From a virus, in IMG/VR virus record IMGVR_UViG_3300042922_000564, positions 1 through 36,485 of that record: a stretch of 36,485 nt of DNA. One strand, 5' to 3'. Of this stretch, positions 24,295-36,485 are shown one piece after another (position 1 is the first letter of the stretch; each line of letters starts with the position of its first letter). Made by a program: the position numbers and the translations under genes. The notes under the pieces were generated by a model. It saw only the letters and a list, made by a program, of their open reading frames with translations. It was not told the origin of the DNA and made no database searches.

Positions 24295-24525
24295 ATGAGA
24301 AACTGGGAAAAGATCGACGATAGTATCTATTGGTTCACTTTTGATTTTTTGAGACAGCCGGACAGACGGCGCATTCGGCAAAGGATGCGAGTGACGTTTG
24401 ATAGCCCGCCTACACCGAGTGAGATAAAAACCAAATATCTGCAGCTTGAGAAGACAGCAAGAGTACAGCAATTGCGTAAGGGGTTGAAAACCGATGCCAA
24501 ACTGGACGAAACGGGGGGAGAATAA
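24295..24525 (+). CDS. Orphan integrase arm-binding-domain paralog
   Basis: A 76-residue protein from ATG 24295, with AAGGGGGTGA upstream. Its first 55 residues align without gaps to the N-terminus of the adjacent integrase, with 14 identities (M.NW.K, Y12, RIRQ at 26-29, T.D at 34-36, P39, E43, E52). That part of the integrase is the arm-type DNA-binding (AP2-like) domain. The gene overlaps the integrase by 32 bases and is co-transcribed. A stand-alone arm-binding protein could compete for or co-occupy arm sites and so affect integration versus excision. Homology is seen; function is inference. Confidence 0.7.
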   Translation: MRNWEKIDDSIYWFTFDFLRQPDRRRIRQRMRVTFDSPPTPSEIKTKYLQLEKTARVQQLRKGLKTDAKLDETGGE

Positions 24526-25723
24526 GTACCGGCTTATTGCTGAGCTTGGGTATGACGCCAAAGGCAAGCGTATCCGCCAGACTACAACAATCACACTTGA
24601 TCATAAACCTAAAAAGGGAGAACTGGATTTAGCTGCAGCCAGGTTTGAAGAGAGTGTCATTAATGGGGAATGGAAAAAGCGCGGTATTGTCGGATTTGAA
24701 GCATTTGTACTGGGCGACTGGAAGAAGAATTATGCTGAGATTGAAATGGGGGAATACACCTGCTTCAATACTATGAGAATAATTGAAGGCCGACTGATTC
24801 CCGAGTTTGGTCGCTTTCAGCTTGATCAAATAAGTACAATTCACTTGGTTCGGTACTTCACGTCCTTGCGAGCTCCTGACGCCCGTAAGGACAAACGCAA
24901 AGGACCTTTGGCTACAAATACCTTACTTAACATTTACAAAGCTTTAAAATCAATATTTGACGCCGCTCATGAGTGGCAGATAATAACCAAAAATCCGATG
25001 GATGGAGTAAAAAGACCTACTGCTGATAAAATTGAGAAGCGCGCCCTAAAGAAACGCAAACGCTCATACTCTCCAAAAGAGGTGGAACGATTAATTACAG
25101 CCCTTTATAAGGAGCCGGAAAACTGGAAGCTGTACTTTATCGGTGTGTTGGTGGGTGGATATCGTCGAGGCGAATATTTAGCCGTGGAATGGCCAGCTGC
25201 GGATTTCCAAATGTCTAGAATTTATGTAGAAAGGCAGATCACCTTTGACAGTGATGGGCAAGCCACTGAAGGAGAATTAAAAACACTTGAGTCCGAGGGT
25301 TTTGTGCCGATGCCTCGCTGGTACATGACTGAGTTGAACGCATTTAGGATGAAAGAAATTAGAGCAAGGTTACGAATGGCACCGAATGACTGGAAAGGAG
25401 GCGACAGACATTTTATATTTCACTCCGGCCATGGCGAACCTTACTATCCAAACACTCCATCAGCAACATGGAGAAAATTCCTGGATAAGTGCGGGCTTCC
25501 AAGAGTGCGCTTGCACGATCTGCGACACACAACGGCAATGTTGCTGCGTGAGTACGGCGCAGACGTCAGAGCAATTCAAAGTCAGCTACGACATTCGAAA
25601 TTGGCAACTACCACAGACACCTATATGGAACGGGATAATACGTTTATTCCCGAAGGTGACAACTTACTGGAAGTTTTGGACCCAAATCGAATTGATGGAC
25701 ACCAAATGGACACCACAAGTTAA
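24494..25723 (+). CDS. int: Site-specific tyrosine integrase
   Basis: A 409-residue tyrosine recombinase. Residues 1 to about 55 form the arm-binding domain, about 68-175 the core-binding (SAM-like) domain, and about 190-385 the catalytic domain. Catalytic residues: Arg224 (GYRRGEY), His341 and Arg344 (HDLRH), His367 (LRHSKL) and Tyr377 (TTTDTYMER). The start is ATG 24494, overlapping the paralog gene; no strong ribosome site, so coupling is likely. The att core in tRNA-Gly lies 75 bases downstream and arm-type repeats flank it, one pair within the last codons. Confidence 0.95.
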   Translation: MPNWTKRGENKYRLIAELGYDAKGKRIRQTTTITLDHKPKKGELDLAAARFEESVINGEWKKRGIVGFEAFVLGDWKKNYAEIEMGEYTCFNTMRIIEGRLIPEFGRFQLDQISTIHLVRYFTSLRAPDARKDKRKGPLATNTLLNIYKALKSIFDAAHEWQIITKNPMDGVKRPTADKIEKRALKKRKRSYSPKEVERLITALYKEPENWKLYFIGVLVGGYRRGEYLAVEWPAADFQMSRIYVERQITFDSDGQATEGELKTLESEGFVPMPRWYMTELNAFRMKEIRARLRMAPNDWKGGDRHFIFHSGHGEPYYPNTPSATWRKFLDKCGLPRVRLHDLRHTTAMLLREYGADVRAIQSQLRHSKLATTTDTYMERDNTFIPEGDNLLEVLDPNRIDGHQMDTTS

Positions 25724-25996: not shown

Positions 25997-26203
25997 CTAA
26001 TTAAAATCGATGCCATCTATGTCTTTCCCCAAAGCCAAAGATATACGTTTCGCAAGGTGTGGAGAAATAACTGATGGTCTCTTTTCAATTTTCATTAACC
26101 TTTCTTCGGATATTTCTAGCGCAGCAGCCAACTGTTGTGTTGAAATCCCCGCCTTCTCCCTCGCTACAGTAATTGTAGGTATATTACTGATTTCATCACC
26201 CAA
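25997..26203 (-). CDS. XRE-type HTH regulator
   Basis: A 68-residue HTH protein: 'REKAGISTQQLAAALEISEE' with RLMKIEKRPSVISPHLAKRI. I place the start at TTG 26203, eight bases after AAGGGGAG; the longer frame has no ribosome site. It is divergent from another XRE gene at 26342. Found right of the att site, at the other end of the prophage from the main switch, so it may be a moron-type regulator or a second immunity element. Confidence 0.7.
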   Translation of the reverse strand: MGDEISNIPTITVAREKAGISTQQLAAALEISEERLMKIEKRPSVISPHLAKRISLALGKDIDGIDFN

Positions 26204-26285
26204 AACACATACTCCCCTTCTATATACTAAAAATAAGAACTTATGTTCCCAATTATAATCGGTCAATTCCCTTTAAATCAATGTC

Positions 26286-26341: not shown

Positions 26342-26572
26342 ATGAGACTCCGTCAAGGGAGCTGCCTGCTGCCAGATATTCGGAAGTCTCGGGGAAAGAC
26401 ACAAGAGCAGGTTTGCACTGCTCTTAAGAATGAGTTAGGGGTGGAAATGTCCCCTTCCTACTTCTCCAGGATCGAGAAAGGCATTGCACCTCTGACTCTG
26501 CTACAAGCCAGAGCAATATGCATTGTACTGGCTTGTACCGAGCAACAACTTTATCACTATACGCAAGACTAG
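26342..26572 (+). CDS. XRE-type HTH regulator
   Basis: A 76-residue HTH protein: 'DIRKSRGKTQEQVCTALKNE', then SPSYFSRIEKGIAPLTLLQA. Strong ribosome site AGGAGGGAACA. It resembles short stand-alone XRE regulators. It is divergent from the 25997 gene and convergent with the agr-like operon. Confidence 0.75.
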   Translation: MRLRQGSCLLPDIRKSRGKTQEQVCTALKNELGVEMSPSYFSRIEKGIAPLTLLQARAICIVLACTEQQLYHYTQD

Positions 26573-26831: not shown

Positions 26832-27194
26832 TTAAGCATATACAATTGTGTGCGATGCTTTTCTTTTAATTTCTTTTATTCGATCTTCGGCCAATGGACA
26901 GTATTTTCCTCTTCTTTCGGCTGAAAAATAAGCCCGGCAAAAAAACTTGTCCACCAACTGAATTGCATCTACATTAATAACCCCGATCCTATCAGCACGA
27001 GCGAAATTGTATCCATTAAGCTTAAACAGGTCCAACCAGTAAACCAATGTTCCTACCGTATAATAGGTGTTTAATTCAGTATGCACAATAATTCTTTTTT
27101 CAGAGCGAAGATATTCAATAAATAAAATTTGATTTATAAGAACAGAGAATAATCCGCTGCCGTCGACTTCTTTTGTCACTGATATTGAGTGCAT
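26832..27194 (-). CDS. LytTR-type DNA-binding regulator without receiver domain (AgrA-like output)
   Basis: A 120-residue protein that consists of a LytTR domain only: ILFIEYLRSEKRIIVHTELN near the N-terminus, then 'YYTVGTLVYWLDLF' and FARADRIGVINVDAIQLVDK, matching the family's IxyIE, HT, FxRxHRS and VN..I positions. There is no phospho-acceptor receiver. ATG 27194 follows GGAGG; the frame's GTG at 27206 lies in that ribosome site. Last gene of the agr-like operon, so it is probably its transcription regulator, perhaps acting on the promoter at about 28510. Confidence 0.82.
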   Translation of the reverse strand: MHSISVTKEVDGSGLFSVLINQILFIEYLRSEKRIIVHTELNTYYTVGTLVYWLDLFKLNGYNFARADRIGVINVDAIQLVDKFFCRAYFSAERRGKYCPLAEDRIKEIKRKASHTIVYA

Positions 27195-27205: not shown

Positions 27206-27325
27206 CTACAGCAATTCTTCTGGAACTTCCCCTTCGTACACATACAGTAAGCTCGCTGTACTAAGCGATCCTACAGCAACAACTGACAATAATGTTGCGA
27301 GTAAAGATAGAGCGCGACGTTTCAT
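27206..27325 (-). CDS. agrD: AgrD-like autoinducing peptide precursor
   Basis: A 39-residue peptide directly after agrB (three-base gap). It has a basic, amphipathic N-terminus (MKRRALSLLATLLSVVAVG) and a C-terminal tail YEGEVPEELL that matches the conserved AgrD recognition segment (DEVEVPKEL in S. aureus AgrD-I). Aligning those tails places SLLYV at residues 25-29 as the five-residue macrocycle, with Ser25 in the position of the usual Cys. The signal would then be a lactone, as known for S. intermedius. GGAGGTGA precedes the ATG. Exact N-terminal trimming cannot be predicted. Confidence 0.8.
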   Translation of the reverse strand: MKRRALSLLATLLSVVAVGSLSTASLLYVYEGEVPEELL

Positions 27326-27328
27326 TCT

Positions 27329-27850
27329 TCATTTCACCTCCCTCCATGTAATTAAAGTAAGACCTTGCACCAAAAAGCACAGAGTAAGTGTTGTTGATTG
27401 GAAGAAAAAACTGCTGGATACAATTAATACAGAAAGAATTTTTAAACCAGGATAGTATCGTCTCGGTATTCGATTTTGCTGTCTAATTCTAGAAGGCGCA
27501 TATACTATGTAAAGGATGATGCTAACTACATTGAGTATCTGAATATATTGCAATTCCAGGTGTATCAGAGAAAGTATTGTGAATGTAGTTGTTGTAGCTA
27601 AAACACACTTCATTCCCGACTTCAGATGAATACCTCCAGAAATTTGTCTTATAGAAGCAAAGACAATCAGTAGAATAATCACTTCCTTTGTCCGGCTGGT
27701 TACGAATGATACAAGTAATGTTCCAATAATAATGAAAGCCGTATTAAGCATAATGGCGAGTGAATATTTCAGGACAGCTACCGAAGCTTTATGATCGGGA
27801 ATATTTCGTTTTATCCCTTCTGCCATTTTTAATGCTAGTGTTTCAATCAT
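27329..27850 (-). CDS. agrB: AgrB-like peptidase/processing membrane protein
   Basis: A 173-residue integral membrane protein of the AgrB family. The catalytic pair is visible as His75 (ISGGIHLKSG) and Cys82 (MKCVLAT), seven residues apart as in S. aureus AgrB (His77/Cys84). About five to six membrane segments. It cleaves the AgrD C-terminal tail and forms the thiolactone or lactone ring. ATG 27850, after GGGAGAGGGAAG, overlaps the receptor gene's stop by eight bases; agrD follows after three bases. Confidence 0.92.
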   Translation of the reverse strand: MIETLALKMAEGIKRNIPDHKASVAVLKYSLAIMLNTAFIIIGTLLVSFVTSRTKEVIILLIVFASIRQISGGIHLKSGMKCVLATTTTFTILSLIHLELQYIQILNVVSIILYIVYAPSRIRQQNRIPRRYYPGLKILSVLIVSSSFFFQSTTLTLCFLVQGLTLITWREVK

Positions 27851-28472
27851 CTTCCCTCTCCCTTTTAAAAGAGTAGTACAAGAAAAACATAGAAAGCAGG
27901 AAGAAAACAAGAATATTCATGTAAATTTCTTTGTAGTACAGCAAAACAGATATGCCTAACAAAAAACCAATAATAGTTATTGTAAGCGCTATATCCTCAA
28001 ACTTAAATCGTAATTTCTCAAATTCAAAATTAAACCCTTTGCCCATGTGGTAAAGGAAATAGGCTCCGACTATAAGAACAATAGCGCTGATTACCTGCAG
28101 CAAATATCCATTTACGATACTATTATCTATTGCGCTTATTGATCCAAAAAACAATAACACAATGCAAGTCTGCGTCACAGCAAAAATCACATACCCGGCG
28201 ATCGTTGCAAGTAAAGAAAATATCAATGGAAGTTTTACCACAACTGTAAAGAAGATTGTAAATAACATGATACTGATTACCGGCGCAACATTTGCCATAG
28301 ATAAATCATTTCTCAGAAGATAACTTTGGAGGTTCATTAGAAGGATGAAAAAAAGCACTTGCCATGCGTACCAACTCCACTTAAACCTAAACAAGCACAT
28401 TATTAAAAAGTACATAGAGAACGCTTCAATAGTTGAAAAAAACATAAAACCTACGGGCTCCCACGACAACAT
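27843..28472 (-). CDS. Seven-TM membrane protein, AgrC-like sensor without kinase domain
   Basis: A 209-residue protein made almost entirely of about seven hydrophobic segments, ending in a short charged tail (SFKREREDD). The size and topology resemble the N-terminal peptide-sensing half of AgrC, but the dimerisation and HATPase domains are absent; the gene stops where the linker would begin. ATG 28472 is preceded by AGGTGG. First gene of the operon, overlapping agrB. It may be a receptor that controls the LytTR protein directly, or an exporter or immunity protein for the peptide. Family assignment rests on topology and context. Confidence 0.6.
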   Translation of the reverse strand: MLSWEPVGFMFFSTIEAFSMYFLIMCLFRFKWSWYAWQVLFFILLMNLQSYLLRNDLSMANVAPVISIMLFTIFFTVVVKLPLIFSLLATIAGYVIFAVTQTCIVLLFFGSISAIDNSIVNGYLLQVISAIVLIVGAYFLYHMGKGFNFEFEKLRFKFEDIALTITIIGFLLGISVLLYYKEIYMNILVFFLLSMFFLYYSFKREREDD

Positions 28473-28509: not shown

Positions 28510-28540
28510 ATTATACCGCCAAAAACCTAAAACCGTATAT
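28510..28540 (-). promoter_or_regulatory. Promoter of the agr-like operon
   Basis: A perfect TATAAT (28515-28510) lies 38 bases upstream of the receptor start. The -35 position holds ATACGG, far from consensus, so activation, for example by the operon's own LytTR protein, is plausible. No clear AgrA-type direct repeat could be identified. Confidence 0.6.
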
Positions 28541-28585: not shown

Positions 28586-28653
28586 TATACTCGTACAAGT
28601 ATATTGTCAATAAATATTTAATACTTGTACGAGTATAACAATTTCTATATAAT
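28586..28653 (+). promoter_or_regulatory. Promoter of the RHH gene with two inverted 17-bp operator sites
   Basis: TATACTCGTACAAGTAT (28586-28602) is the exact reverse complement of ATACTTGTACGAGTATA (28621-28637). Each is itself nearly palindromic. The right site contains the -35 (TTGTAC, 28625-28630) of a consensus promoter with 17-base spacer and TATAAT (28648-28653). They are likely operators of the ribbon-helix-helix protein, autoregulated and possibly reaching the agr promoter to the left. Confidence 0.78.
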
Positions 28654-28664
28654 TACAGCAAAGG

Positions 28665-28886
28665 ATGGTGAGCATATTGGAGGAATCTAAAAGAAGCCCA
28701 GCATCACGGGCAAAGATGAAATACAACGCCAAAAACTATGAACGAATCCCCTTAGATGTCAAAATAGGCACCAAAGCAATCTATAAGGCTGCAGCTGCGG
28801 CAGAGAATCTAAGTCTAAATGCTTTTATCCAGAAGGCCATAGAAGAAAAAATGGATCGAAAATCAAAGGAAACCCCGCCAGCATAA
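28665..28886 (+). CDS. Ribbon-helix-helix (Arc/MetJ-type) DNA-binding protein
   Basis: A 73-residue protein: a basic N-terminus, the beta-strand region YERIPLDVKIGTKAIYKAAA and the helix 'ENLSLNAFIQKAIEEKMDRK', a pattern of Arc-like repressors. The start is uncertain: ATG 28665 abuts its AAAGG, while TTG 28677 has GGTGAG four bases upstream. It is divergent from the agr-like operon and likely binds the paired 17-bp sites before it. It could alternatively be an antitoxin, but no toxin gene is adjacent. Confidence 0.68.
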   Translation: MVSILEESKRSPASRAKMKYNAKNYERIPLDVKIGTKAIYKAAAAAENLSLNAFIQKAIEEKMDRKSKETPPA

Positions 28887-34707: not shown

Positions 34708-35514
34708 TCACCCCGCATATTTTGCTTTGAATTTTATTGCCATACTGAAGTTCAAGCCGGTACCGCCAACGGTCACCGTCGATACGCCCCGGGGCAGCAC
34801 GCCGAACCGGGCATTGGTATGAAGCAGCACGTTTGTTGAGCCAATACGCGCCGTCCGTCGCTGGAAGTCAAGAACCAGTGTTCCAGACATGGGAACATTG
34901 TAGGTAGTAACCACACCGCCCACAGTCAGCGAAAGCGTGCTGAAGCTTCCGGAAATCTCAATGACCGGCTTAACGTTTAGCGATCCATAATTTTCAATGG
35001 ATAGCGCAATCGGCCCATTGACCGCAAAATTATAAGCAGCGTCCAGAGATATTGCCGTGTCAACCAGAATCGGAGTATCCACGTTAATATCGTCAGAGTC
35101 AAATATACTGTAGGCATAAGGATCAAAGGCGGTGAACGGTAAGGAAAATTTGCCTAATCCGGCTGACCGGTTTATGGGCAACTGTCCGGAGTAACGAACC
35201 ATGTAATGCCGGTCCGGCAGCAGCTCAAAGATCAGAGGAATGGTTCTCGGTCTGCCGTCGCCGTCCAGCAAGAACTCTGCCAAGGCCGAAATACGCCGCT
35301 GCAGCTGATAGGGGTTGCGCTCATTAAAAGCACAATCCAGTATCAACGGCAACGGAGCCAGATCCGCCCCGAAGTCATACGCACCGTGCATGAAGGGAAC
35401 GGTGTATGAACGGTCAACCGTAGGGGGCAGGATAGGGCGCTGCGACTCCCTCAGTGTCTTCAAGCCCATGTCCTGCGGACTCATACCGTCCAATAATGCA
35501 ACTACGCCTCTCAT
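34708..35514 (-). CDS. Distal tail protein (Dit)
   Basis: A complete 268-residue Dit of the SPP1 gp19.1 / Siphovirus tail component type. The N-terminus (MRGVVALLDGMSPQDMGLKT, RSYTVPFMHGAYDFG) forms the ring domain, and the C-terminal part from about residue 140 is a galectin-like beta domain (LSIENYGSLNVKPVIEISG). It overlaps the tape measure stop by four bases. The first 52 codons, also present at the left end of the window, give an identical protein. Confidence 0.9.
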   Translation of the reverse strand: MRGVVALLDGMSPQDMGLKTLRESQRPILPPTVDRSYTVPFMHGAYDFGADLAPLPLILDCAFNERNPYQLQRRISALAEFLLDGDGRPRTIPLIFELLPDRHYMVRYSGQLPINRSAGLGKFSLPFTAFDPYAYSIFDSDDINVDTPILVDTAISLDAAYNFAVNGPIALSIENYGSLNVKPVIEISGSFSTLSLTVGGVVTTYNVPMSGTLVLDFQRRTARIGSTNVLLHTNARFGVLPRGVSTVTVGGTGLNFSMAIKFKAKYAG

Positions 35515-36485
35515 GTCACCACCCCCGCCCCCCGTAATGCATCTGCTAATTGGCCGCCCAGTACCTGGCCCAATCGTCTCGCCTCGTCTTCGTCTTTCAT
35601 GATGAAATTCGCTCCTGCAAACAGACCTTGTAACACCACTTGAATAACCCCTGTTGGCGCCGCTGCGGCAGCAGACGCTTCCGTGGAGGCAGAACCACTA
35701 CCATTATTTACAGAGGACGACTGAAGACTCGGCATCGCCGCTGCTGCCATGGCTTGCGCCTGGCGCTCGATGCTGGCCATCGTACCCGCCAACCCTTCGA
35801 CCAATCCGGAACCGGCCATTTCGCCGATCCACGCCAGCTCCCGTGAAGGCGAATGAATGTCCAGCGCCTTTTGCATCGTCTTGGTAACTGAATTGGCGAT
35901 TTCCTTCGCTTTGGCGGATACGGCTCCCTGCATACTGGTCATACCGTCAATGAGCCCCTGCATAGCCTGCTTGCCAATCGTCGGCAGATCTGCCTTCATG
36001 GCATTGAATTCCTTATTGGCGCTGCCGCGTATGGCCTTGACCTTGGTTTCAAAGTCTCCGCGTAGCTTATCCAGCTCTGCGACGGCTTCCGTATGCAGCA
36101 GCGCAATTTGCGTATTGGTATCCTGGCGTAGACCGGACAGTTCAATAACGGCAGCCGTACGTGCCTCGGAGGACTTCGTCTTCCAAAGCGTTGTATATTC
36201 GGCCAGCTCCGTGTCGGTCAGTGTATTGAGTGCGGCCAGCTCCGGAGCAGCCTGCGGCCCCATCTCCCGCAGCTGCTGAAGCAATCCCTGATCAATCCCC
36301 CGGGCAGACAGCAGTTGCAGGTTGGTCGCCCATTTATCCAGGTATTCGACCTGACCGCGTAGATTGTCCAGCAGATCCTTCCCGCTGGTCTCGGAAGCGA
36401 TCGTCACCTGGTCAAACAGCCCGGCGAAATCATTGATGGACTTGGCCCGCTGCTCCACCGCCGCCGCGTATTCATCATTCAGGCG
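35358..36485. repeat. Imperfect direct repeat, right copy (pairs with 1-1128)
   Basis: Covers the start of Dit and the last 325 codons of tape measure. See the left copy for details. The zone free of differences is 35358-35484; differences become denser to the right. Confidence 0.95.
35511..36485 (-). CDS. Tape measure protein, C-terminal fragment cut by the window edge
   Basis: The last 324 residues of a second tape measure protein, open to the right edge. It differs from the complete gene at 154-4731 by only four residues (two Ser to Asn, Met to Leu, Phe to Leu) despite about 60 nucleotide changes. It contains one IHSPS motif. It is a real, selected gene from a related phage rather than a mutated remnant. 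Confidence 0.9.
   Translation of the reverse strand, partial: RLNDEYAAAVEQRAKSINDFAGLFDQVTIASETSGKDLLDNLRGQVEYLDKWATNLQLLSARGIDQGLLQQLREMGPQAAPELAALNTLTDTELAEYTTLWKTKSSEARTAAVIELSGLRQDTNTQIALLHTEAVAELDKLRGDFETKVKAIRGSANKEFNAMKADLPTIGKQAMQGLIDGMTSMQGAVSAKAKEIANSVTKTMQKALDIHSPSRELAWIGEMAGSGLVEGLAGTMASIERQAQAMAAAAMPSLQSSSVNNGSGSASTEASAAAAAPTGVIQVVLQGLFAGANFIMKDEDEARRLGQVLGGQLADALRGAGVVT

Follow-up and report, generated by a model that had tools for sequence, protein, structure and literature searches.

We find that a four-gene operon on the minus strand of the 36,485-nt viral stretch analysed here (IMG/VR record IMGVR_UViG_3300042922_000564, hereafter the window) encodes, in this order, a membrane protein, AgrB, AgrD and a LytTR protein, and that purifying selection acts on all four genes (dN/dS 0.04–0.16). 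We consider it fairly probable that this is a phosphorelay-free Agr operon of a temperate Paenibacillaceae phage and that it controls a phage decision. In the mechanism we propose, AgrB would cut AgrD between Val29 and Tyr30 and close a 5-residue, 16-atom ring via the hydroxyl of Ser25. The released lactone would be sensed by the 209-aa membrane protein, acting as the sensor half of an AgrC-type protein without its kinase. This receptor would in turn act directly on the LytTR-only regulator, by hold and release or by a change of dimer state, with no phosphorylation involved, and the regulator would control the promoter of its own operon and probably the adjoining lysogeny genes as well.

The signal precursor is encoded by agrD (27206..27325, minus strand), the third gene, whose 39-aa product is MKRRALSLLATLLSVVAVGSLSTASLLYVYEGEVPEELL. 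The gene starts 3 nt past the end of agrB behind a strong ribosome-binding site, GGAGGGAGGTGAAATGAAGAATG. The NCBIfam model TIGR04223 (quorum_AgrD) matches the product with E=4.7e-9 and 36.2 bits against a cut-off of 19. Between the window and its sister phage L002, agrD carries 12 changes that are synonymous and 4 that are not (dN/dS ~0.09), a pattern of selection not seen in the other two frames of this comparison. A chance ORF, a frameshifted gene and an assembly artefact are excluded by the TIGR04223 match together with this codon selection. A reading made earlier from the letters alone (the sequence-only reading) had taken the ORF after agrB for an agrD gene, and the model match, the ribosome-binding site and the codon selection bear it out.

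Alignment of AgrD homologues points to Ser25 as the residue that closes the ring. We assembled 62 distinct AgrD cores from phages and Paenibacillaceae genomes and anchored them on the proline of the PxEL motif. Counted from this proline, which in the window belongs to EVPEEL, position -10 is Ser in 49 cores, Cys in 3 and neither in 10; the window has Ser25 here, exactly where the staphylococcal and listerial AgrDs have their ring cysteine. The strongest sequence argument for ring closure by Ser25 is that Ser and Cys replace one another at a constant position. In the 52 Ser/Cys-type cores, the ring residues from -9 to -7 are variable, position -6, which precedes the cleavage site, is almost always aliphatic, and position -5 is only ever H, Y or N. 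This pattern is what would be expected of an AgrB substrate that forms a five-residue ring, in the window the predicted Ser25-Leu-Leu-Tyr-Val29 (27239..27253, minus strand). SLLYV does form the five residues immediately before the conserved tail, as the sequence-only reading had it, and the serine-lactone signal it proposed gains support from the variable neighbors of a near-constant Ser or Cys. The tail itself, YEGEVPEELL (27209..27238, minus strand), is probably recognised and removed by AgrB. Its predicted conservation holds as well: the P and L of PxEL occur in 62/62 cores, which had been selected with the pattern P.xL, and the E occurs in 60/62.

The N-terminal end of the mature peptide is less certain. 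The sequence-only reading had given the lactone a short tail from the preceding STA residues; its placing of the serine ring stands, and the tail is not settled. Thr at -12 (31/52) and Ala at -11 (34/52) are conserved among the Ser/Cys-type cores, and since the resulting STA|S looks like a target of signal peptidase, cleavage there may leave the mature peptide tail-less. In Listeria, the mature AgrD peptide has been argued to be tail-less, and lactones of this kind are able to rearrange into head-to-tail cycles (PMC11297923). Serine-lactone chemistry on its own is already known, given the precedent of Staphylococcus intermedius, for which a serine lactone is documented (Ji 2005, cited in PMC10482373). 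Serine replaces the ring cysteine there as in the phage; in S. intermedius, however, it is an exception in a cysteine family with normal AgrC and AgrA, whereas in the Paenibacillaceae and phage family serine is the rule and the relay is missing. We note that AgrDs with serine also adjoin AgrC-type kinases in other Bacillota.

The enzyme that would process this precursor is encoded by agrB (27329..27850, minus strand), a 173-aa membrane peptidase (Pfam AgrB, PF04647, 7.8e-21; dN/dS 0.12). Its catalytic His and Cys are invariant among the phage relatives (H76/C83 in P0002 numbering).

The first gene of the operon (27843..28472, minus strand) encodes the 209-aa membrane protein, with about six membrane helices and the lowest dN/dS of the four genes (0.04). 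Its start is ATG 28472 with the ribosome-binding site AGGTGG; the longest ORF frame begins at 28511. Pfam gave no match for this protein, which ends shortly after its final membrane helix. In an hhalign comparison, its profile aligns with the sensor half of AgrC-type kinases over 171 columns (probability 96.4, E 1.4e-9), while the membrane-protein control, AgrB, scored a probability of 0.1. Because identity is only 11% and both partners of the comparison are membrane proteins, homology to the AgrC-type sensor half is likely, not beyond doubt. The link to AgrC came first from locus L092, in which a receptor-like part is fused to SPOB_a and HATPase domains and adjoins a receiver-LytTR regulator. 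In other Bacillota, related AgrC-type kinases directly precede AgrB-AgrD, the same slot that the kinase-less receptor occupies here. An AF2 model of the receptor reached a pLDDT of 78.6, and Foldseek and structure searches with it against PDB and BFVD returned just low-confidence helical matches, so the case for homology is made by the profile comparison together with the order of the genes. The phage record, which may be incomplete, yielded neither a HATPase_c nor a Response_reg domain at any position, and a histidine kinase may be encoded elsewhere in the phage or in the host.

Several receptor loci depart from this layout. Phage Davies has two tandem receptor genes ahead of agrB (L003:2604-4008). 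In other Bacillota (L075, L077, L081), a short receptor-like gene is followed by a separate GHKL kinase gene, and in L075 and L081 the AgrB gene comes next, a split AgrC arrangement. Two long frames were set aside. The 426-aa frame in G022 looked like a fusion but owes its length to an in-frame start further upstream, and the gene there is an ordinary receptor of ~217 aa; the 464-aa frame in L089 gave no kinase match on inspection.

The last gene (26832..27194, minus strand; start ATG 27194, ribosome-binding site GGAGG) encodes a 120-aa LytTR-only regulator without a receiver domain (PF04397, 2.7e-7). Its AF2 model has a pLDDT of 94, and the best PDB matches of this model are the LytTR structures of S. 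aureus AgrA, 4g4k and 3bs1 (E 5.7e-7, TMt 0.84). Pfam LytTR also matches 21 of 22 relatives of the protein. PHROGs labels the family 'peptidase', and the records of phages Harrison and Abouo use the same label, which looks wrong. In GenBank, LytTR regulators labelled 'peptidase' occur at L004:4651-5019 and L005:4648-5004, probably a propagated error.

Compared with the canonical agrBDCA of Staphylococcus and Listeria, the phage operon shares the AgrB His and Cys, the AgrD nucleophile at -10, the PxEL tail and a LytTR domain of the AgrA fold. It differs in having Ser for Cys, a sensor without a histidine kinase, a regulator without a receiver, and the gene order sensor-B-D-LytTR. Of the canonical components, the AgrC-type membrane sensor is thus present as a remote homologue, whereas the kinase/HATPase domain and an AgrA combining receiver and LytTR are absent from the operon, two gaps on which the sequence-only reading did not remark. 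A closer parallel for the regulatory half is found in the LytTR Regulatory Systems HdrRM and BrsRM (PMC6193735), where a LytTR regulator and a membrane partner likewise work with no phosphorelay, and where the membrane protein is proposed to inhibit the regulator directly. It is on this analogy that we propose direct control of LytTR by the receptor. In those systems, the regulator gene comes ahead of the membrane gene, whose product acts as inhibitor (PMC6193735); the phage membrane gene, in contrast, comes first, with agrB and agrD before LytTR, and encodes an AgrC-like protein accompanied by a peptide signal and its maturase. LytTR Regulatory Systems autoregulate through direct repeats upstream of the -35 element; the window has a conserved promoter block without clear repeats.

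Phage-borne agr genes have been described before. The phage phiCDHM1 carries agrB and agrD in its agr3 locus, as the window does, but there AgrC retains its HATPase_c kinase domain and a regulator is lacking (Hargreaves 2014; PMC3901668). The same paper notes, in the related phages Abouo, Davies and Emery, membrane proteins that lack HATPase_c and lie beside AgrB and AgrD; we saw no LytTR partner reported there. Of these phages, Abouo and Davies proved on examination to share the gene order of the window and to carry a LytTR-like gene as well, labelled peptidase or hypothetical protein. Our reading of the open-licence literature turned up no account of the LytTR partner, of the kinase-less family, of serine as a family rule or of a lysine subfamily; searches of this literature on kinase-less Agr/LytTR systems, Paenibacillus serine-lactone AgrD and lysine-lactam autoinducing peptides led to nothing beyond PMC3901668. 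Arbitrium (AimP/AimR) is likewise a phage peptide signalling system and, like the window's, possibly one for lysis-lysogeny. It uses, however, a linear peptide and an RRNPP-type cytosolic receptor, with no AgrB, membrane receptor or LytTR, the very genes that lie next to one another in the window.

The AgrDs of Abouo and Davies are themselves unlike that of the window: position -10 is neither Ser nor Cys, and -9 is an invariant Lys. They belong to a subfamily of ten distinct AgrDs that lack Ser and Cys at -10, and on this point the alignment goes against the sequence-only reading in part: a Ser or Cys at the ring position, on whose conservation it had staked its proposal, is found in 52/62 cores, yet this phage subfamily has neither. 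Lys occupies -9 in 10/10 of its members, Gly -5 in 9/10 and Ser -4 in 9/10; phages of Brevibacillus and P. larvae, together with related viral contigs, supply eight of them, and genomes the other two (ORFs in L003, L004, L005, L009, L010, L013, L014, L017, L134 and L136). The NCBI AgrD model does not match the five that were examined. AgrB nevertheless keeps its catalytic His and Cys alongside a Lys-type AgrD in the three phages checked. By atom count, a four-residue ring closed through Lys, with the same bond cut, has 16 atoms, equal to the five-residue Ser/Cys ring, and because of this equality a lactam through Lys -9 is a reasonable guess, though no more than a guess. The receptors differ as well: a PPH loop is present in 9/11 of those paired with a Lys-type AgrD by pattern, and in that of L134 by inspection, compared with 0/79 receptors of the other type. 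This fits joint change of receptor and peptide, but shared ancestry would account for it equally. The invariant Lys would predict a new linkage chemistry among autoinducing peptides.

The cassette is not confined to phages. Receptor homologues were found in 155 of 245 sampled Paenibacillaceae genomes, nearly always as kinase-less frames of 200–280 aa, and in 23 of 299 genomes of a phylum sample, mostly as weak matches. At 40 inspected receptor loci, one per genome and picked mainly among strong receptor matches, LytTR was present in 36, AgrD in 38 and AgrB in 34; the four loci without a neighboring LytTR are L113, L114, L116 and L128. Three loci (L107, L125, L127) have receptor, AgrD and LytTR with AgrB absent, and two (L099, L103) have receptor and LytTR alone. 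The persistence of these last pairs without AgrB or AgrD makes receptor and LytTR look like the core couple. All five loci may be listeners, or may rely on a different AgrB. A P. polymyxa agr-like cassette has been mentioned (PMC7425212); in that species group, L027, L029, L032 and L113 have receptor-AgrB-AgrD with no LytTR nearby, and the cassette of L027 adjoins the core genes rsmD/coaD, as read from translations. The same four-gene order recurs in the GenBank records of phages Davies, Abouo and Harrison and in most of the viral loci, which were gathered with AgrB and single-protein receptor queries. In the AgrB tree, phage and chromosomal sequences are intermixed, which forces at least 9 changes, with possible prophages counted among the chromosomal loci. 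The spread of the kinase-less receptor/LytTR kit in Paenibacillaceae suggests bacterial signalling without the usual phosphate relay.

Could the membrane protein be a partner of AgrB and AgrD in export or processing, with LytTR constitutive or answering another cue? The gene lies directly upstream of agrB and overlaps it in many loci, the P. polymyxa-group loci just described do without a LytTR neighbor, and no solved structure backs a receptor function. We nevertheless regard this as unlikely, since the protein is a probable homologue of the AgrC-type sensor half in the same genomic position, since the L099 and L103 pairs have nothing to process or export, and since the PPH-loop receptor subtype tracks AgrD chemistry. 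Somewhat less likely still is that the receptor partners a histidine kinase of the host, or that the peptide mimics host peptides to manipulate Agr-like systems of the host. Chromosomal AgrD rings (SFLYI, SVLYV, SYVYV) do closely resemble the phage SLLYV, and a 2025 review suggests that phages without AgrA may use that of the host (PMC11945551). However, the phage's own LytTR regulator has no receiver to phosphorylate, and bacterial versions of the receptor are likewise kinase-less.

AgrB-like peptidases fall within RiPP chemistry, and bacteriocin operons commonly carry membrane immunity proteins. That the product is a cyclic antimicrobial, with immunity conferred by the membrane protein and LytTR as regulator, is nonetheless improbable: the AgrD tail and ring match those of pheromone AgrDs, and the receptor resembles AgrC sensors. 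The retention of receptor and LytTR alone in places is also as expected of listeners, although immunity might be kept in the same way. We therefore prefer the phosphorelay-free Agr operon among these readings. A broader proposal is more tentative, and we would put it at somewhat under even: that an AgrC sensor, its kinase lost, signals straight to a LytTR regulator whose receiver has been lost as well, that the sister phage subfamily makes a macrolactam through Lys -9, and that the cassette family, common in Paenibacillaceae, has repeatedly switched between phage and chromosomal carriage. If true, two-component quorum sensing can shed both phosphotransfer domains and yet signal. Agr would also be linked to the poorly understood systems of LytTR and membrane proteins, which would gain a defined ligand, and a complete kit of sender, receiver and regulator beside phage lysogeny genes would be an Agr counterpart of arbitrium.

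The operon's promoter, TATACG-N18-TATAAT (28510..28540, minus strand), is exact in the window and has no consensus -35 element, which fits control by an activator. The block is common to phages and chromosomes, with identical spacing in L002, L035, L036, L042, L050, L101, L102, L105, L108, L110 and L112. The window promoter shows no clear LytTR repeat sites, and no second copy of it was found in the phage. With mismatches allowed, TATACG-N18-TATAAT has no more matches in the window than in shuffles, and we therefore claim no further members of the regulon.

The surroundings of the cassette make lysogeny control its likeliest use, because it adjoins integrase and repressor genes in several phages (the window, L002, Davies, Abouo, Harrison and L015). 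In the window, the lysogeny module beside the cassette includes an integrase (24494..25723, plus strand; phrog_1, 5.5e-41), an HTH regulator between integrase and cassette (25997..26266, minus strand; HTH_3 3.3e-7, phrog_1373) and a second HTH regulator that adjoins the cassette (26342..26572, plus strand; HTH_31 6.2e-7), a protein like which also lies beside the cassette of L002. On the other side, a gene for a ribbon-helix-helix, Arc-like protein (28665..28886, plus strand; phrog_13890 6e-15, phrog_582 Arc-like 0.0013) is divergent from the agr operon. Between the two lie two exact palindromes, TACTYGTACRAGTA, at 28588-28601 and 28622-28635 (span 28588..28635), against 0.2 sites expected at up to 2 mismatches. 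They are probable operators of the adjoining Arc-like protein, which may co-regulate the agr operon. Finally, we note that positions 1-1128 and 35358-36485, at the end of the tape-measure gene, are 94.3% identical with 64 mismatches: either two related strains overlap at the window's ends, or a circular assembly was left unclosed.
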